From positions 1-64,000 of the forward strand of contig CAMBMO010000005.1 of assembly GCA_945868805.1 (NCBI GenBank): a stretch of DNA of 64,000 nucleotides. The letters are read 5' to 3'. Source of the stretch: Singulisphaera sp. GP187 (GTDB taxonomy: Bacteria > Planctomycetota > Phycisphaerae > Phycisphaerales > SM1A02). The notes under the pieces were generated by a model. That model was not told the origin of the DNA. It saw only the letters and a program-made list of their open reading frames with translations, and did not search any database. Positions 24,666 through 35,803 of this stretch are shown here, piece after piece; positions within the stretch are counted from its first letter, which is position 1, and each line of letters opens with the position of its first letter. The position numbers and the translations under genes were made by a program.

Positions 24666-25240
24666 CCACAACTCGCCAACGCGAATCGATCGTTCCCATC
24701 GTTCTTGTTGGCGGGAAGAGTCGCCGATTCGGACGGGACAAGCTTCGCGCTGCGATCGGTGATGAACTGCTCGTCCATCGCCCTGTTTCCGCGTTGCGCA
24801 TTGTGTTTGGCGCACGAGTCGCACTCGTTGGCGAGTGTCACGCCGATGTCGCGCAGCTCGGCGATTCGATCATCGTGGACAACTACCCGGGTCGCGGTCC
24901 CGCTGGAGGGATTCTCTCGGCACTCGAGCATAAACAGTGCTCGGTCTTTGTCGTCGCTGGTGACATGCCGACCATCGAACCCTCGCTCATTCGCGCGATC
25001 CTGCGCGAGGCTGACGAGAACATCGACGCGGATGCCATCATCGCCTCAAGCGCATTGGGTCCGGAGCCGTGCTTCGGTCTCTATCGAATCGGCGCCATCG
25101 ATGCGCTGCGAGACGCGGTGATTGCGCCTCGGGTCCCCTCACTGCAATCCGTGCTCGAATCACTTCGTACTCGACTCGTTGCTGCCGATGCGACATCGTT
25201 GGCGAACATCAACCAACCCGAAGACCTCGCGCAGTTCTAG
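24662..25240 (+). CDS. mobA: Molybdenum cofactor guanylyltransferase
   Basis: This 192-residue nucleotidyltransferase begins IVPIVLVGGKSRRFGRDKLR, the GGxSxRFGxxK nucleotide-binding loop. It continues with DNYPGRGPAGGILSALE, FVVAGDMPTIEPSLIRAIL and GPEPCFGLYRI. MobA attaches GMP to form the bis-MGD cofactor used by DMSO-reductase-type enzymes, so such molybdoenzymes are expected elsewhere in the genome. It ends the cofactor operon. Confidence 0.92.
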   Translation: MTTTRQRESIVPIVLVGGKSRRFGRDKLRAAIGDELLVHRPVSALRIVFGARVALVGECHADVAQLGDSIIVDNYPGRGPAGGILSALEHKQCSVFVVAGDMPTIEPSLIRAILREADENIDADAIIASSALGPEPCFGLYRIGAIDALRDAVIAPRVPSLQSVLESLRTRLVAADATSLANINQPEDLAQF

Positions 25241-25571
25241 TCCGTTCGAATCGCGCTTGGCCGCCCCCTCGCCACCACTCCAAAACTCTGTTGCGCTTCG
25301 TCGAATCTGTGCTATACTCGCAACACCCCGCCGGTTCACCTCAGGTCGAAGCATCTTTGCTCTCGACACTTCTCTGGGATTCAGCCGGCAACTGTGGAAA
25401 GCATCGGAAGCCTTCCAACAGTGCCATCAGGCTTGTTTCTGTTTCTTCCCGTTCTCCCGATTGGGTTCGACCGCGGCGGCATCAGACTTGTCCAAAACGC
25501 AGACACTCGGTCTCCGAATAGACCGAGCGTCAGAAGGTTGTTTTCATTTGTCAATAGATACAGCATCGACC
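25241..25571 (+). promoter_or_regulatory. Long leader region of the DEAD-box helicase gene
   Basis: These 331 bases lie between mobA and the likely helicase start and hold no convincing gene. A promoter candidate (25291-25318) would give a leader of about 245 nt. A hairpin can form from ACTGTGGAA (25391-25399) with TTCCAACAGT (25413-25422), with one bulged A. An in-frame extension of the helicase through this region is open but has low-complexity, non-family sequence. Long structured leaders are usual for cold-inducible RNA helicase genes, which is the best guess here. Confidence 0.45.
25291..25318 (+). promoter_or_regulatory. Predicted promoter of the DEAD-box helicase gene
   Basis: TTGCGC (25291-25296) and TATACT (25313-25318) are separated by 16 bases. 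The -10 box is the closest match to consensus in this intergenic region. Transcription would start near 25325. Confidence 0.5.
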
Positions 25572-26993
25572 GTGTCATCCCCCTCTCATTTCACCTCGCT
25601 CAATCTGGCGAAGGCGTTGCTCGAAGCACTCGCTGCTGAGGGATACACCATCCCGACGCCGATCCAGACTCAGGCAATTCCACCAGCCCTTGCTGGCCGA
25701 GACGTGCTCGGAATCGCCCAAACTGGTACTGGAAAAACCGCGGCATTCGCGTTGCCGATCCTGCATCAATTGCTCGGCAATTCTCCAGCAAACACGCCCC
25801 GCGCTCCGGGTCGATCGCCTCGCGCGTTGATTCTCGCGCCAACGCGTGAACTCGCCGCTCAGATCGGCGAAAGCTTTGCCGCATATGGTCGCAAGACGCA
25901 GATGCGACATGTCGTCATCTTCGGCGGAGTCAATCAGCGACCCCAAGTCAACGCACTGCGAAGTGGCGTCGACATTCTCGTCGCAACACCCGGTCGTCTG
26001 ACCGACCTCATGCAACAACGCCTTGTCGATCTGCGTTCGATTTCGTTCGCAGTGCTCGACGAGGCGGATCGCATGCTTGACATGGGATTCATCGAACCGA
26101 TTCGCCGCATCATGTCGGCCGTGCCGGCGAAGCGCCAGACCATGCTCTTTTCGGCAACGATGCCGAGCGAGATCAAACACCTCGCCGATTCGTTCTTGAA
26201 AGATCCAGTTCGTGTTGCGGTGACTCCAGTCGCCTCGACCGTCGATCGGATCTCGCAGCACCTCTATCAAGTTGGAAACACGCAGAAGATCCAATTGCTT
26301 CTGCACATTCTCAATCAGGATGGTTGCGACCGCACGCTCGTCTTTACGAAGACAAAGCACGGTGCCGATCGCGTCGTCAAGCGACTCGCGGCTGCCGGTG
26401 TGAATTCGCAGGCGATCCACGGAAACAAGGCGCAAAACCACCGAACCCGCGCTCTTGAGGCGTTTAAGTCCGGGAGTGCACCTGTGCTTGTGGCGACTGA
26501 CATCGCGGCACGCGGAATCGACGTCGACGGAATCACCCATGTCATCAATTACGACATGCCGATGGAACCTGAGTCGTACGTGCATCGAATTGGGCGCACC
26601 GCCCGCGCTGGAGCGAGTGGGATCGCAATCGCATTCTGCGCCCCTGAAGAGCGTGGACTTCTGCGCGCCGTCGAGAAATTGACGCGCAAGCAGATTCCGA
26701 TATTGGCGCTCCCGGCAAACCTCCCCGCAGTGCCGCAAGCACCAGCCGCGACTCGTGCGCCAGCAAATCCTCCATCTCGCCACATCAAGGGTCGAAGCCC
26801 GCACGCCCGTCGCATGCAGTCGCCACTCGGTGTTGACTCGCCCAATCAGGCCCGGCCGAGTGCGCCACAGGTTTTTCACCCGCATGCCCAGAGTGCAGCT
26901 CCGAAGTTGCCACATGCACATCAGATGCCACATGCACACCGAGGCCCGCATACCGCTGGAAGATCGACTTCGCGACGAGGTCGCAGGGGATAG
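25572..26993 (+). CDS. DEAD-box RNA helicase, RhlE-like
   Basis: From GTG at 25572 the product has 473 residues. All helicase motifs are present: the Q motif FTSLNLAKALLEAL and GYTIPTPIQTQAIP, motif I AQTGTGKTAAF, PTRELAAQ, DEADRML, SAT, then ATDIAARGIDVDGITHVINY and HRIGRTARAG. A short His/Pro/Arg-rich tail (HPHAQSAAPKLPHAHQM and a final RRGRRG) resembles the RNA-binding tails of RhlE. It unwinds short RNA duplexes, for example in ribosome assembly or RNA decay. A TTG at 25548 with AGAAGG ten bases upstream (25532-25537) is an alternative start adding eight residues. Confidence 0.92.
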   Translation: MSSPSHFTSLNLAKALLEALAAEGYTIPTPIQTQAIPPALAGRDVLGIAQTGTGKTAAFALPILHQLLGNSPANTPRAPGRSPRALILAPTRELAAQIGESFAAYGRKTQMRHVVIFGGVNQRPQVNALRSGVDILVATPGRLTDLMQQRLVDLRSISFAVLDEADRMLDMGFIEPIRRIMSAVPAKRQTMLFSATMPSEIKHLADSFLKDPVRVAVTPVASTVDRISQHLYQVGNTQKIQLLLHILNQDGCDRTLVFTKTKHGADRVVKRLAAAGVNSQAIHGNKAQNHRTRALEAFKSGSAPVLVATDIAARGIDVDGITHVINYDMPMEPESYVHRIGRTARAGASGIAIAFCAPEERGLLRAVEKLTRKQIPILALPANLPAVPQAPAATRAPANPPSRHIKGRSPHARRMQSPLGVDSPNQARPSAPQVFHPHAQSAAPKLPHAHQMPHAHRGPHTAGRSTSRRGRRG

Positions 26994-27022: not shown

Positions 27023-30000
27023 GTGAGTGACACGCCGATTGCAAAGCTCGAGCAGTTGACCCCGACGATCCAGATGATCCAGATGATCCCTGAGATCTTC
27101 GGCTCGACAGTGTGTACACATGCGCATCGAGTTGCTATCGACATTCCACCAGGAACGGGCAGGCCGTCTAGGCAAACGTGCACATATGCCCAGCTTGACC
27201 AGAAAAGTCGCGCGATCGCCCTGGCGATTGCAGCTGATCTCTGGGGAAGGCATGAACCGATCGTCGCAGTATTGCTCCCGCGAGATACGGCGAATCTGTA
27301 CGCGGCGCAGTTGGGAGTTCACCGAGCCAGCGGAGCATTTACGTGTCTCGATCTCAACTTTCCAGACGACCACATTCGGTCCATCATTCGCGATTCGGAT
27401 TCGCCGGTCATCTTGACCGACTCGATCGGTCGCGCGAGAATCGAACGAGCTGGACTCGCGCCGAATCAGCGCATCATCGATGTCGGTTCGATCTTGGATG
27501 ACGGGCGAACAAATGAGACTGCACGCCCCACCGATCCGCATTCGCTGGCATACGTCATCTACACCTCTGGGACGACCGGCGCTCCCAAGGGAGTCATGAT
27601 CGAACACCGCAGCATCGCCAATCTCGTGCGATCCGACATCCCACGCTTTGGACTCGATCACACTGACCGAGTCGCACAGTGTTCATCCGCCGCCTATGAC
27701 TCGTCGCTCGAAGAGACTTGGCTTGCGTTCGCGGTCGGAGCGACGCTCGTTCTGATCGACGACGAGACGATTCGACTCGGACCAGACCTCGTCGATTGGA
27801 TCAACCGAGAGTCAATCACGGTGCTCTGCCCCCCGCCGACACTGTTACGCACGCTGGGTTGTGCGAATCCGCAACGAGAGCTTCCATTGGTGAAACTTCT
27901 TTATGTCGGCGGTGAAGCGCTTCCTCAGGATCTCGCGGACTCTTGGAGTCGAGGTCGTCGACTCGAAAACGGCTATGGACCGACTGAGTGCACTGTAACG
28001 GTGGTGCGCACGCAGATCGTTGCTGGCGTTCCTGTGACGATTGGTCAGCCCGTCGAAGGCCACACCGCGCACATTCTGGACGAATCGCTCGACGAAGTCG
28101 CTCCAAGCGGACCGGGTCGCGGCGAAGGTGAGTTATGTATCGCAGGAATCGGTCTCGCACGCGGATACAGAAATCTTCCACTCGTCACGGCAGAGAAGTT
28201 CATCGACCATCCAAAGTTCGGCCGCATTTATCGAACCGGTGATCTCGTTCGTCGGACTGCACCGGGTGACATCGAGTACCTCGGTCGAATCGACGGGCAG
28301 ATCAAACTGCGCGGATACCGCGTGGAATTGTCGGCAATCGATTCGATCCTCGCTCAGCACGATTCTGTTCGCGAAGCTGCTTGCAGAGTGCAGGGAGAAG
28401 GCGCGGCGCGCATCGTCGTTGCCCATGTTGTCTTGCTGGATTCCATAACCGCGCCCCCGTGGGATGACATTCGCGATTCTGTCAGAAGGTCCTTGCCTTC
28501 GTACATGATTCCGAGCCGATTCGTGACGATCGATGCACTCCCGCGCACGGTCGGGGGCAAGATTGACCGAATAAGACTGCCAGAAGTCGATGCACCCAAC
28601 ACCAGCCATGTCCGGACCGACGAGACTCACACTCCTCAAGAGGCGATCATCGTCCATGCAATGGCAAACGCGCTCGCACGAGAAAGTTCGATCTCGATCG
28701 ACGCGGATTTTTTTGTCGATCTCGGTGGCGACTCGCTGAGTGCAGTCGGAGTCATCTGCGCTCTCCGCGCAAAGCCGTCGACTGCATCGCTAACCGTCAG
28801 AGATATCTATGAATGCCGATCCGTGCGCAACCTTTCGCACCGATTGGGGGAGCGATTGACCACCGCACCAACCCAAGAGCCGAGAGTTCGTGCAGGCACC
28901 CGTGCCAATGATCCGACGCTCGCAGCCATTGTGCAGTGCCTCGTTCTCGCGGCGATGCTGGTCGCATCTGGATCGATCGCCTACCTCTTGATTTTCGAAT
29001 TGATGCCGATGCTCGTCGCCGAATGGGGAATCTCATGGACGATCGCTATCACACCGATTTTCTCGATGATTGGGATTGTCGTGTACAGCGCCTTCGCTGT
29101 CGCGATGACCGTGATTCTCAAGCGCGTCTTGATCGGACATGCCCGCGCTGAGACCTTTCCTGTCTTCAGTGCTCCGTTCATCCGGCACTGGATCGTCCAA
29201 CAATCCGCTCGCACCATTCCGTGGGGATTGATCGAAGGAACGGTGATCGTGAGTGCGGTCCTTCGACTGTTGGGCGCACGCATCGGCGAACGTGTGCACA
29301 TTCACCGTGGTGTTGATCTGTTTCGCGGCGGATGGGACTTGCTCGCTATTGGCGACGATGTAACGCTTTCGCAGGAAGCGACGCTTGATCTTCTTCTGCT
29401 ACGGGACGGACAGTTGAGCGTTGGACCTGTCACAATCGGCGATCGATGTACGGTCGATGTGCGCGCTGGAGTCGGCCAAGGGGCACGGATGGAATCGGGA
29501 TCCTCGCTCGCACCACTCTCACACCTCTGTAACGGTGCGCGAATCCCTGCGGGTGAACTCTGGGACGGCGTGCCAGCGAAACGAACTGGCTTCGCGCATG
29601 AACATGAGCATGATCAAGCACGAGATCCGCGCGGGACGAACCTCAATCCTCATTGGCATGCGTTCCTCATGATTGCATCGCACTTTGGATTCGGACTCAT
29701 CTCTGCACTTTCATGGATGGTGATCGCGTGGCTCGTCGCTCCGCGCTTCGAATCGACGGATCCGAAGGTCATCGCCGTTCTGCTGCTTATCGGCACTCCC
29801 CTCGCTGTGATGACAACACTCTTCGCGCAAGCACTCGGTGTCCGCGCGCTCGGACGAACAAAATCGGGACAGATCAATCGATGGAGTCAGGAATTCATCA
29901 CAATCTGGGCGAAAACGCACGCCGTCGACTCTGCCGGTCGATGGCTCAGCGGATCGCTCTTCTGGCCGATCTGGCTTCGGATCGCCGGAATGCGCGTCGG

Positions 30001-31018
30001 ACGCGGATGCGAAATTTCGACGATCATCGATGTCCTACCCGACACGGTAACGATTGGCGATGGGTGTTTCTTTGCGGACGGGATCTACTTCGTATCGCCT
30101 CGTATTCACCGCGGCGTTGTCACCGTCGAGCACACATCCCTTGCTGAAAACACTTTCATAGGGAACCACGCAGTGATCACCGCCGGACATTCCTATGGGA
30201 AGGATCTCTTCATCGGTGTGAGCACCGTCGCCAACGGAATGCTCTCACCTGCAGGCAGTTCGTGGTTCGGACATCCCGCGATGGAACTCCCGCGCCGCGA
30301 AGTGGTCTCGATCGATCGAACGCTCACGCATAATCCGAGCGCCCTCCGATGGACCAATCGTGTGCTCTGGGAACTCGCGCGATTTGCACTCCCTCTCTTT
30401 CCCATCGCGGTCGGACTGGGTTGGTGGGGCGCGATCGATCTCGCGCAAACCTACTGGTCGCCGTTGGCCGTCGCACTCTTCGTGGCTCCGAGCGCAACGA
30501 TCGCCGCCTGCCTGACGATGATCGGCGCAATCATCGCGATGAAGTGGGTTCTGCTCGGGCGGGTTCGTCCAGGTCAACATGCCTTCTGGAGCTGTTGGTG
30601 TAGTCGATGGGACCTTCTCTTCGTCGCGTGGGGGTTTTACGCACGACGAATCCTCGATGGGATTGAAGGAACGATTCTCCTGACTTGGTTCCTTCGATGT
30701 ATCGGCGTACGCATCGGCCGACGTGTTGTTCTGGGCCGAGGCTTCACCCAAGTCGTCGATCCGGACATGTTGACCATCGACGACGATGCGACCGTCAACT
30801 GCAACTTTCAGGCGCACAGTTTTGAGGACCGAATTCTCAAGATCGACTATGTCCACATCGGGGCGGGAGCGACGGTCGGTCGTCATGCCGTGCTCTTCTA
30901 TGGAGTTCACATCGGCACGGGCGCGCTGGTCACGCCGCACAGTGTCGTCATGAAGCGAGAGCAAATCGAAACTGGTTCGATCTATTCAGGATGTCCTGCG
31001 AGTCGATTGAATTTCTGA
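27023..31018 (+). CDS. Pls/PosA-type nonribosomal peptide synthetase (A-PCP-membrane/left-handed-helix protein)
   Basis: This is 1331 residues. Residues about 30-520 are a complete adenylation domain: AYVIYTSGTTGAPKGVMIEH (A3), AAYDSSLEETW (A4), NGYGPTECT (A5), YRTGDLV (A7), GRIDGQIKLRGYRVEL (A8) and RTVGGKIDR with the catalytic Lys (A10). A peptidyl-carrier domain follows, with LGGDSL and the phosphopantetheine Ser at 571. From about 630 come six or so transmembrane helices alternating with three hexapeptide/left-handed-helix segments (about 755, 990-1070 and 1225-1331). This architecture is that of the terminal domain of epsilon-poly-lysine synthetase and relatives, which ligate one amino acid iteratively at the membrane. 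No condensation or thioesterase domain is present. The GTG start has TAGTCT six bases upstream. Confidence 0.9.
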   Translation: MSDTPIAKLEQLTPTIQMIQMIPEIFGSTVCTHAHRVAIDIPPGTGRPSRQTCTYAQLDQKSRAIALAIAADLWGRHEPIVAVLLPRDTANLYAAQLGVHRASGAFTCLDLNFPDDHIRSIIRDSDSPVILTDSIGRARIERAGLAPNQRIIDVGSILDDGRTNETARPTDPHSLAYVIYTSGTTGAPKGVMIEHRSIANLVRSDIPRFGLDHTDRVAQCSSAAYDSSLEETWLAFAVGATLVLIDDETIRLGPDLVDWINRESITVLCPPPTLLRTLGCANPQRELPLVKLLYVGGEALPQDLADSWSRGRRLENGYGPTECTVTVVRTQIVAGVPVTIGQPVEGHTAHILDESLDEVAPSGPGRGEGELCIAGIGLARGYRNLPLVTAEKFIDHPKFGRIYRTGDLVRRTAPGDIEYLGRIDGQIKLRGYRVELSAIDSILAQHDSVREAACRVQGEGAARIVVAHVVLLDSITAPPWDDIRDSVRRSLPSYMIPSRFVTIDALPRTVGGKIDRIRLPEVDAPNTSHVRTDETHTPQEAIIVHAMANALARESSISIDADFFVDLGGDSLSAVGVICALRAKPSTASLTVRDIYECRSVRNLSHRLGERLTTAPTQEPRVRAGTRANDPTLAAIVQCLVLAAMLVASGSIAYLLIFELMPMLVAEWGISWTIAITPIFSMIGIVVYSAFAVAMTVILKRVLIGHARAETFPVFSAPFIRHWIVQQSARTIPWGLIEGTVIVSAVLRLLGARIGERVHIHRGVDLFRGGWDLLAIGDDVTLSQEATLDLLLLRDGQLSVGPVTIGDRCTVDVRAGVGQGARMESGSSLAPLSHLCNGARIPAGELWDGVPAKRTGFAHEHEHDQARDPRGTNLNPHWHAFLMIASHFGFGLISALSWMVIAWLVAPRFESTDPKVIAVLLLIGTPLAVMTTLFAQALGVRALGRTKSGQINRWSQEFITIWAKTHAVDSAGRWLSGSLFWPIWLRIAGMRVGRGCEISTIIDVLPDTVTIGDGCFFADGIYFVSPRIHRGVVTVEHTSLAENTFIGNHAVITAGHSYGKDLFIGVSTVANGMLSPAGSSWFGHPAMELPRREVVSIDRTLTHNPSALRWTNRVLWELARFALPLFPIAVGLGWWGAIDLAQTYWSPLAVALFVAPSATIAACLTMIGAIIAMKWVLLGRVRPGQHAFWSCWCSRWDLLFVAWGFYARRILDGIEGTILLTWFLRCIGVRIGRRVVLGRGFTQVVDPDMLTIDDDATVNCNFQAHSFEDRILKIDYVHIGAGATVGRHAVLFYGVHIGTGALVTPHSVVMKREQIETGSIYSGCPASRLNF

Positions 31019-32512: not shown

Positions 32513-34276
32513 CTAGCCATGGATGCCACGTGTGCTCTCAACGCAGTACGCCCGCCACGCATCGCGAAGTGCTCCGTGAAACCGCCGCGCATACGCGACT
32601 TGGTCGCAAAGCGGAGACGCGCGTATTTCGCCACGCAGTCCAGCTCGAAGCGATGCGAGTCGCGCGCGGTCCGTCGCAAGTCCTGCAGCGATCGAAACGA
32701 ATTCCTCGGGCGTTTTCGCCACCCACTCTGGATGTCCCGCGGCATCCAGGAGAGACGCTCCGACACGTGCCGCGTGGCGATCTCCCGCGATCGTGACCAC
32801 GGGAACCCCCATCCACAGTGCCTCGCATGTCGTCGTTGTGCCGTTGTATGGAGTGGTATCGAGCGCGACATAGACGCGCGAGTACATCGACCAGTGCTCG
32901 TGCAATCCTGCCGTGTACGCGAGAAGATCGACTCGACTTTCGGCGATCCCAGCCACTCGTAACCGCTCGAGAAAGAACTCACGTGTCCCTGGATCGGCGA
33001 TGGACTTGCACTTGATCAAGAGGCGCGAGTCAGGAACTGCGCCCAGGACTGCCGCCCACAACGACATCGTTCGGTTCGTGATCTTCGCTGCCAGGTTGAA
33101 CGAACCAAAGGTGATCGCAGTAGTGGCAGTCGGGAGCGCAGGTTCGGGAGCGTCCGATGGTGGCGAATAGCAGAGGAAACAGGGATCAATTCTTAAAAGT
33201 CGTTCGGTGCAGTGCGCGTCGCTTCCTTCGACATCCGTCGTCGAATCGACAATTCGCCACCCGACAGCTGGATGCCCTGTCGTATTGGGATAGCCGATCG
33301 CGGTGATGATCACCGGAGCGGGCGCACTGTCGAGCGCACCCATCCGTCCTCCAGATGTGTGTCCACCCAATTCGACGAGGAGATCGATCTGCCGCGAACG
33401 GATGGCGCGGTCGAGCGCTGCGTTGTTTATCGCAACTGCATCGACCCATTCGTCAGCAAGAGTGATGAGTCGTGCCCGCATCATGTCCCCAGCTGGCGCA
33501 TGACCACTCGAGAAGACTGTCAGTTTGCATCCCGTGGGTCGATGGCGCATGAACGACTCGGCGAAAAAGGCAACCGAGTGCGTGCGCATGTCGCCTGAGA
33601 GAATTCCAATGTGCAGTGGACGGTCGGGAGATGGGTCGGTGTGGGCTGGCGGCTGGATACTTCGAACGCACTGTGCATACTCTCGGTGCGCCTGCTCAAC
33701 ATCGCCCGTGGGGGCATCGGAATAGTTTCGCGCCATCAGGAAACTCGACCGCAGACCCGAATCGAGCGGATGTTTGGCGATGGCACGAGAAAACTCGGCG
33801 AGTGCCTCGTCGATGCGACCGCAGTCCTTCAGCACGCTCGCGAGATTTCTCGAAAGTTCGGGCCAGTCCGGATTAAGCGCGAGACCGCATCGGCCTGCCT
33901 CGATTGCACCGACCGAATCTCCGACCTCCGCACATGCCAAGACGAGCCCGAGGTACGCGCGCGAGTATGTTGGATCGAGTTCAATCGCCTTGCGCCACTC
34001 TGCGGCTGCATCGCGTGGACGACGCGCACTCAAGAGGGAATTCGCATAGTTGTTCCGGTATCCGGCGACATTCGGTGCAGCTGCGACCGCGCGCCCGAGA
34101 TGATGTATCGCCTGCGCGACCTCCCCGGCTTGTAGCAACAGCATGCCGAGGACTTGCGCAGCATCGAAATCGTTCGGCTTTCGCTTCACGAGCAACCGCA
34201 TCGACGCCAACGCCGATCCAATCCGACCCTCCTGCGCATCGTCCAGTGCGCGTTGAAGCGTGGAATCGGAGGCCAT
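32513..34276 (-). CDS. TPR protein with O-GlcNAc-transferase-like (GT41/SPINDLY) catalytic domain
   Basis: Of 587 residues, about 1-190 are tandem TPRs (for example ARPRDAAAEWRKAIELDPTY and AYLGLVLACAEVGDSVGAIE). The rest matches GT41 glycosyltransferases: HIGILSGDMRTHSVAFF, IDLLVELGGHTSGGRMGALD, APVIITAIGYPNTTGHPAVG, FGSFNLAAKITNRTMSLWA and VDTLPYNGTTTT-like ALDTTPYNGTTTTCEALWMG. Such enzymes add GlcNAc or another sugar to Ser/Thr of proteins. ATG 34276 is preceded after six bases by TAGGAT (34288-34283). No target protein can be named. Confidence 0.88.
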   Translation of the reverse strand: MASDSTLQRALDDAQEGRIGSALASMRLLVKRKPNDFDAAQVLGMLLLQAGEVAQAIHHLGRAVAAAPNVAGYRNNYANSLLSARRPRDAAAEWRKAIELDPTYSRAYLGLVLACAEVGDSVGAIEAGRCGLALNPDWPELSRNLASVLKDCGRIDEALAEFSRAIAKHPLDSGLRSSFLMARNYSDAPTGDVEQAHREYAQCVRSIQPPAHTDPSPDRPLHIGILSGDMRTHSVAFFAESFMRHRPTGCKLTVFSSGHAPAGDMMRARLITLADEWVDAVAINNAALDRAIRSRQIDLLVELGGHTSGGRMGALDSAPAPVIITAIGYPNTTGHPAVGWRIVDSTTDVEGSDAHCTERLLRIDPCFLCYSPPSDAPEPALPTATTAITFGSFNLAAKITNRTMSLWAAVLGAVPDSRLLIKCKSIADPGTREFFLERLRVAGIAESRVDLLAYTAGLHEHWSMYSRVYVALDTTPYNGTTTTCEALWMGVPVVTIAGDRHAARVGASLLDAAGHPEWVAKTPEEFVSIAAGLATDRARLASLRAGLRGEIRASPLCDQVAYARRFHGALRDAWRAYCVESTRGIHG

Positions 34277-34747: not shown

Positions 34748-35803
34748 ATGAAGTCCATCCCCAATTCCTTCTCTGTTCGATCCATCCTCGTCGTTGCAGT
34801 TTGTGGAACGGGGTGTTCATTCGCTGGTGCGCAATCCGCCAATAACGACTGCAATGCGCCCGAGGCGATCTCTGGATACGGCGTGACCGGATTCACTACC
34901 GTTGGCGCTACGACCGATGGTATTGCCGCCCCAGCATGCCTCTTCTTCAGCGTGACTCAGATTTTCAACGACATTTGGTATTGCTGGACTGCCCCTACGA
35001 GCGATCTCGTCACAATCAGTCTCTGCGGAGCAAGCTATGACACGAAGCTCGCGGTGTATGGCGTTTGCACTCCCTGCCCCGATCCGTCGCTCGTGATCGC
35101 CTGCAACGACGACTTTTGCGCATTGCACTCATCCCTCACTTTTGTCGCGACCGGTGGGCAGTCGTACACACTCCGTCTCGGCGCGTATGCAGCCACTGGA
35201 ACTGGTACCGGCAATATCACAATCGCATCAGGATGGTTGCATGAAGCGGTCAATCCTGCGAACAACCATCGTTATGTCGCGTATGTGACGACATCGTGGA
35301 ACGCCGCAGAAGCGACGGCTGTCGCTGCGGGTGGACATCTCGCGACGCTGAACGACGCCGAAGAAAACGCGTGGATCCAAGCCAACTTCGGAACGATCGG
35401 CGGCACCGATCGACGAAGCTGGATCGGCATCAATGACGCTGCCATTGAAGGGGTCATGGTCTGGTCGAGTGGCGAGACGGTTACGTACACAAATTGGAAC
35501 CCAGGCGAACCGAATAATGGGGGTGCTGGCGAGGACTACGTTGAATTTCTCGGAAGCAACGGGAAGTGGAACGACTTGAATCTCGCTGGGGCAGGACTCG
35601 CGCACATTGGTATCGCAGAATTGGGAGTCGCCGCACCCCTATGTCCCGCAGATTTCGACCAAGACGGCGTCGTCGGCGGATCGGACATCGCAGTGATTCT
35701 GAGCAATTGGGGTGGAGGTGGCGCGGGCGATCTCGACGGCGACGGAGTGGTCGCCGGCCCGGACTTGACGACCCTGCTGAGTGCATGGGGCGTTTGTCCG
35801 TAA
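34748..35803 (+). CDS. Secreted C-type-lectin-like protein with C-terminal dockerin-like repeat
   Basis: This is 351 residues. A signal peptide (SILVVAVCGTGCSFAGAQ, ending about 29) is followed by a beta-sandwich pre-peptidase-like region with Cys-rich loops (about 35-155) and a C-type lectin fold (about 165-295) with ATLNDAEENAWIQANFG, RRSWIGINDAAIEGVMVWSS and TYTNWNPGEPNNGGAGEDYV. The EPN and WND (GKWNDL) calcium/sugar-binding motifs are kept. The C-terminus (about 299-351) has two dockerin-like calcium loops, DFDQDGVVGGSDI and DLDGDGVVAGPDL, a module very common at the end of Phycisphaerae exoproteins. It probably binds surface carbohydrate. Confidence 0.88.
   Translation: MKSIPNSFSVRSILVVAVCGTGCSFAGAQSANNDCNAPEAISGYGVTGFTTVGATTDGIAAPACLFFSVTQIFNDIWYCWTAPTSDLVTISLCGASYDTKLAVYGVCTPCPDPSLVIACNDDFCALHSSLTFVATGGQSYTLRLGAYAATGTGTGNITIASGWLHEAVNPANNHRYVAYVTTSWNAAEATAVAAGGHLATLNDAEENAWIQANFGTIGGTDRRSWIGINDAAIEGVMVWSSGETVTYTNWNPGEPNNGGAGEDYVEFLGSNGKWNDLNLAGAGLAHIGIAELGVAAPLCPADFDQDGVVGGSDIAVILSNWGGGGAGDLDGDGVVAGPDLTTLLSAWGVCP

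Follow-up and report, generated by a model that had tools for sequence, protein, structure and literature searches.

Pls (epsilon-poly-L-lysine synthetase) and PosA (delta-poly-L-ornithine synthetase) belong to an enzyme class that makes cationic antimicrobial polymers, one of which is a food preservative. A gene on the plus strand (27023..31018) of a 64,000-nucleotide stretch of planctomycete DNA (contig CAMBMO010000005.1, positions 1 to 64,000; hereafter the window) encodes a synthetase that resembles these enzymes, which raises the question of what amino acid it loads and what it makes of it. We consider, with a probability of about 0.6, that the product is a stand-alone, membrane-anchored member of the Pls/PosA superfamily that loads a bulky cationic alpha-amino acid and makes a short homo-oligomer from it: the adenylation (A) domain would adenylate the amino acid and load it onto the carrier arm, and the loaded units would be joined by the terminal domain in the membrane. 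The binding pocket, together with the assay reported for a homologue that shares the specificity code, suggests that the monomer is cationic and probably not lysine (Lys), ornithine (Orn), 2,4-diaminobutyrate (Dab) or 2,3-diaminopropionate (Dap); polymerisation is the activity expected by analogy with the characterised relatives. A pocket for an unidentified monomer has already been flagged in print (PMC10522769). What is new here is that this pocket, as read from sequence, is nearly invariant over at least five phyla and that, in many members, the synthetase gene is closely linked to a gene for a SET-domain protein, the best solved relative of which methylates an amino acid in free form. The substrate question is thereby narrowed to a short list of assayable compounds.

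Architecture of the synthetase

The gene is a single intact open frame with a GTG start that encodes a protein of 1331 amino acids. Profile searches placed an adenylation domain at residues 48-513 (27164..28561, plus strand, as are all features of the gene), with matches to Pfam AMP-binding (residues 48-382) and AMP-binding_C (439-513) and to the NCBIfam model TIGR01733 (residues 54-453, 346 bits against a cut-off of 317.4). This is followed by a carrier domain (PP-binding, PF00550) at residues 546-608 (28658..28846), in which the phosphopantetheine serine, S571, is invariant across the clade described below and in nine Pls/PosA-type enzymes with other specificity codes. The remainder of the protein is a terminal membrane domain of three repeats (28934..31000), supported by a structure model and by the terminal-domain profile TIGR02353, which aligned to residues 638-1326 over positions 3-695 of its 695 (E 4.7e-105), with a score below its curated cut-off that is considered further below.

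An AlphaFold2 model of residues 626-1331, built from a 10-row alignment (mean predicted local distance difference test score, pLDDT, 78.3; predicted template modelling score 0.82), shows three repeats, each made up of long helices and then a left-handed beta-helix. The beta-helices are predicted at about residues 750-861 (29270..29605), 988-1085 (29984..30277, partly with pLDDT under 50) and 1227-1325 (30701..30997), the third of which also contains the one hexapeptide stretch that Pfam detects in the synthetase (residues 1277-1309). The best matches of the model in the PDB are hexapeptide transferases, which are acyltransferases, and gamma-carbonic anhydrases. Beyond residue 610, 21 positions are common to the clade and to all nine other-code enzymes, among them D1019, N1048, Q1263 and H1265. 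The last two are conserved in at least 97% of the clade and invariant in the nine other-code enzymes, making Q1263-x-H1265 (30809..30817) candidate catalytic residues of the terminal domain, a role suggested by conservation. The likeness to Pls and PosA thus comprises the order of A, carrier and terminal domains, the full-length terminal match, the three modelled helix/left-handed-helix repeats and the shared invariant residues, and the architecture that had been proposed from the sequence alone, with one A domain, one carrier and a three-part terminal region, is borne out by both profiles and model.

A Pfam scan found no condensation, epimerase or thioesterase domain in the synthetase open reading frame, as the original prediction had stated, and no condensation domain was found anywhere in the genome from which the window derives (2.5 Mb, 47 contigs, 95.8% complete). 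Within that genome the whole protein matches the synthetase gene alone at E <= 1e-60 (three of the eight first-look candidates were scored), and one ACPS-type phosphopantetheinyl transferase is present.

A nearly invariant pocket in a clade that spans at least five phyla

The ten code positions were located by what we take to be the corresponding motifs of GrsA, without a computed GrsA alignment. They reproduce the predicted code D-S-E-C-Y-G-G-V-T-K (D226, S227, E230, C269, Y294, G296, G317, V325, T326 and K513), and for an Acinetobacter homologue (L122) the same mapping returns DMEHNGTVSK, the PosA code printed in PMC10522769. The acidic pair of the diamino-acid synthetases is present, with D226 as Asp 235 and E230 as Glu 239, and the earlier view that the acidic residue at position 239 resembles pockets for basic amino acids is upheld.

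A search of 181 genomes of the family with the whole protein gave matches in 57 at E <= 1e-60; one of these (G078), which matched over the A and carrier part only, was dropped to leave 56 synthetase genomes. In a wider sample of the phylum, the terminal domain matched in 15 of 392 genomes at E <= 1e-40, the weakest of which (G437) was too short to place, while a sample of the verrucomicrobial phylum gave matches in five of 387, two within the clade (one being the search centre) and three with other codes. According to their record titles, further relatives come from Verrucomicrobia, Chloroflexi, an alphaproteobacterial metagenome-assembled genome and four Streptomyces plasmids, so that the clade reaches at least five phyla. 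A phylogenetic tree with 65 rows, from which 10 short rows were omitted (a quick method, unrooted, with SH-aLRT support only), placed 56 clade rows on one side of a branch with a support of 100, opposite the nine other-code enzymes, one of which bears the published PosA code and which share about 28-33% identity with the clade. The proposed Pls/PosA-type architecture stands; in the tree the window enzyme falls into a separate clade. Three close relatives of the window protein in genus group g45 (L080, L081 and L082) have longer frames of 1423-1600 amino acids with extra residues between the carrier and the terminal domain, and no SET gene nearby.

Among the 64 clade members with a complete code (three truncated rows were dropped), 60 have exactly DSECYGGVTK, and the four that deviate carry Phe (two) or Trp (one) at position 299 or Val at position 331 (one). 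Position 299 is aromatic in all 64, compared with none of 12 other-code enzymes, and position 322 is Gly in all 64, compared with Thr or Ser in all 12. In PosA a hydroxyl residue at position 322 contacts the side-chain amine, a contact that Gly in the window enzyme and its clade would not provide. A pocket that retains the acid, gains an aromatic residue and loses the hydroxyl would fit a bulky cation that has few hydrogen bonds to donate. As judged from sequence, these enzymes form a separate, cross-phylum sub-family of the Pls/PosA superfamily with a nearly invariant DSECYGGVTK pocket.

A homologue with this exact code has been assayed. The Bdellovibrionales protein OFZ39577.1 has the code DSECYGGVTK (Patel and Gulick, PMC10522769) and, as described there, the same overall architecture as the window protein. 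According to that report, four diamino acids gave no higher activity with its A domain, 'Bdello_A', assayed in isolation, L-arginine was activated modestly, and the authors themselves suspect a larger analogue as the substrate. Words beginning planctomycet, verrucomicrob or methylat are absent from the main text of PMC10522769.

Coupling to a SET-domain gene

In many relatives, comparison of gene neighbourhoods revealed a small SET-domain gene, which we designate type 1, immediately upstream of the synthetase gene. It is adjacent in 40 of the 61 checkable clade loci, a locus (of 67) being checkable when at least 400 nt of upstream sequence was available or the SET gene was visible; counted among the 40 are L039, where a SET fragment lies at the contig edge, the short frames of L004 and L069, and L079, with a SET gene 463 nt from a truncated frame. 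The estimated gap from the SET stop to the synthetase start ranges from -82 to +44 nt in the measured loci, and in L056 a second, farther SET copy lies at 688 nt; the two type-1 genes of this locus are arranged in tandem directly upstream of the synthetase (L056:6569-7957; 232 and 146 bits). No SET gene was found in the fetched flanks, some of them short, of the 12 Pls/PosA-type loci with other codes. The synthetase is stand-alone in the window genome, as had been proposed, but not in many of its relatives.

A type-1 profile applied to the 181 family genomes at a threshold of at least 91 bits detected the gene in 41 of the 56 genomes with the synthetase against one of the 125 without it. In that single synthetase-free genome (G135) the SET gene ends 56 nt from the contig end; weaker matches of 61 and 59 bits occur in two further synthetase-free genomes, and in G180 the contig stretch that carries the type-1 gene has no synthetase. 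Co-occurrence with any SET gene (49 of 56 against 16 of 125) mixes the type-1 gene with a different kind, type 2, that is found in the window genome and in some synthetase-free genomes. In the Streptomyces plasmids the SET gene is located 10-14 kb downstream of the synthetase and is not adjacent to it. A search of 72,556 plasmid records found the same four records to carry both a SET protein at least 90% identical to the Streptomyces SET and a 48% identical synthetase; since these plasmids are near-copies, they count as about one case. In one of them (L093, Streptomyces sp. NBC_00648) same-strand hypothetical genes follow the synthetase (L093:11313-17982), five of which, when checked, had no Pfam match at E 0.01, and a gene for a PucR-type regulator is found on the upstream side.

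The coupling is not universal, and the SET gene was rejected as an obligatory partner given that 21 of the 61 checkable loci have no adjacent SET. The window itself belongs to this group, with a type-1 SET neither adjacent nor elsewhere in its 95.8% complete genome. Where the synthetase has no SET next to it, 16 genomes were searched whole: 15 have no type-1 gene, and G248 carries one on another contig (the other four of the 20 genomes were G083, G002, G186 and G099). The only SET gene of the window genome (G000:C14:59456-59746; L091, L095) is of type 2 and far from the synthetase. It was rejected as a supplier for the synthetase because it scores 278 bits with the type-2 profile against 46 with the type-1 profile and is also present in synthetase-free genomes. 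When the tree was marked for the presence of SET it required 13 changes, an overestimate because L039 was marked as lacking SET despite its SET fragment and L140 has only 440 nt of upstream sequence. A class I methyltransferase gene just upstream of SET in L054, L055, L057 and other g42 loci, with looser relatives in L005 (upstream of the synthetase, without SET), L068 and L069, was set aside as local synteny, mainly of one genus group. One distant locus was found when viral contigs were scanned with the SET profile.

Possible function of the linked SET proteins

The best relative in the PDB of the linked SET proteins (three queries) is BurB, which converts free methionine to S-methylmethionine (PMC12542666). 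In Burkholderia thailandensis, the BurB pathway feeds a synthetase whose A domain takes the sulfonium acid dimethylsulfoniopropionate (DMSP) rather than S-methylmethionine (PMC7496086). The likeness of the linked proteins to BurB thus lies in the top PDB match, in shared positions and in the tie to a peptide synthetase, which for BurB is one with a sulfonium acid as its substrate; they differ in that they are distant from BurB, score it by a small margin over histone methyltransferases, and have no counterpart in the window genome. The SET profile gave 59.2 bits for BurB against 56.2 for the next entry, a histone methyltransferase, over the whole sequence, and 55.2 against 55.7 bits for a histone methyltransferase by best domain. 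Equivalents of the BurB residues Q75, H81, T127, E128 and F135 are kept in 12-13 of 13 type-1 SET proteins, whereas the H, TE and F of this set are not present in the one histone enzyme that was aligned. Overall, sequence comparison gives moderate support for a relation of the linked SET proteins to BurB, and they may methylate a free amino acid. A structure prediction for the SET protein was set aside (pLDDT 47). In the literature searched, which excludes most subscription journals, we found no report of a SET protein or S-methylmethionine paired with a peptide synthetase.

What the synthetase may load and make

Several points weigh against a bulky cationic monomer that is joined into a short homo-oligomer. 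The terminal domain scores 352.5 bits with TIGR02353 (355 in a second search) against the curated cut-off of 423.1, so that the match to this model, which the original prediction had proposed as a check, is full-length but falls short on score. The cut-off is exceeded in none of 41 related genomes, and a Streptomyces relative reaches 356.1 bits, compared with 772.6 for one other-code enzyme. The window protein is accordingly not filed in the curated family and is classed as a divergent relative; by this measure it lies outside the Pls/PosA equivalog family, yet most likely works like one. The published assay concerns one homologue, an isolated A domain and modest activity (PMC10522769), and the genes beside the window synthetase gave no sign of a product, an exporter or a resistance function. 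Moreover, arginine and S-methylmethionine have no primary side-chain amine, and with either of them the isopeptide chemistry of the known polymers would be unworkable as such. The same objection would lose its force if the enzyme transferred a single residue to another acceptor, such as a lipid, a small molecule or a surface group, for which the modelled acyltransferase fold of the terminal helices might also be fitting. We regard single transfer as unlikely, as the invariant terminal residues are common to enzymes of the polymerase family, one of them with the PosA code, and no acceptor pathway is seen beside the gene.

As for the monomer, the leading candidates are L-arginine and, alternatively, a methylated amino acid of the sulfonium or ammonium type. 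An ordinary Lys, Orn or Dab homopolymer synthetase, as the original prediction had envisaged and as the acidic residue at position 239 and the domain architecture would allow, now appears very improbable: none of the four diamino acids was preferred by the identical-code A domain in the published account (PMC10522769), and Gly322 and the aromatic residue at 299 set the pocket apart from all 12 other-code enzymes. On these two grounds it was rejected as the most likely explanation. Arginine, or a close guanidino analogue, in an alpha-linked oligomer is a tentative possibility, with the SET protein having another role such as modifying a protein or the product. It has in its favour the direct assay of the identical-code domain and the constant availability of arginine, and because genomes without SET keep the code unchanged, SET is not strictly needed and arginine stays an equal candidate. 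The activity was, however, called modest by authors who suspect a larger analogue (PMC10522769), and the coupling to SET would be left unexplained. That coupling hints at a methylated cationic monomer, in which case the SET protein would methylate a free amino acid, most likely Met to S-methylmethionine or Lys to an N-methylated form, and the synthetase would activate the fixed-charge product. The upstream position and co-occurrence of the type-1 gene, its presence 10-14 kb away in the four near-identical plasmids, BurB as top PDB match with its positions kept, and the consistently aromatic position 299 all point this way. We nonetheless find it rather doubtful, since the window genome and most of the SET-less members searched in full have the same code without a type-1 SET, BurB scores hardly above histone methyltransferases, the known sulfonium A domain takes DMSP (PMC7496086), and arginine activity was measured for Bdello_A whereas S-methylmethionine is not named among the tested compounds in the accessible text of PMC10522769. 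It is unlikely, on present evidence, that the sub-family as a whole produces peptides or polymers from an amino acid that is methylated and carries a permanent charge, with S-methylmethionine as the first candidate and a BurB-like SET supplying the monomer in most members. Should the monomer prove to be methylated, the product would represent a naturally occurring poly-sulfonium peptide or another peptide of fixed charge, the pairing would add to the cases in which a SET enzyme supplies a peptide synthetase, and the window species would be a member that lost SET and gets its monomer another way.

Surroundings of the window gene

The synthetase gene begins 29 nt downstream of a DEAD-box helicase gene on the same strand (25122-26993), which is itself preceded by molybdenum-cofactor genes. 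Downstream, on the opposite strand, are a sodium:sulfate symporter gene and a TPR/GT41 gene encoding an O-GlcNAc-transferase-like protein (32513-34276), and positions 34748-35803 hold a gene whose product has a C-type lectin domain. Both the TPR/GT41 and the lectin-domain gene have relatives close to the synthetase elsewhere in the genus. Five other genus genomes carry the synthetase close to the same TPR/GT41 gene, with the symporter and helicase genes adjoining it as well in one of them (G016), which suggests that the synthetase is an old resident of this site.

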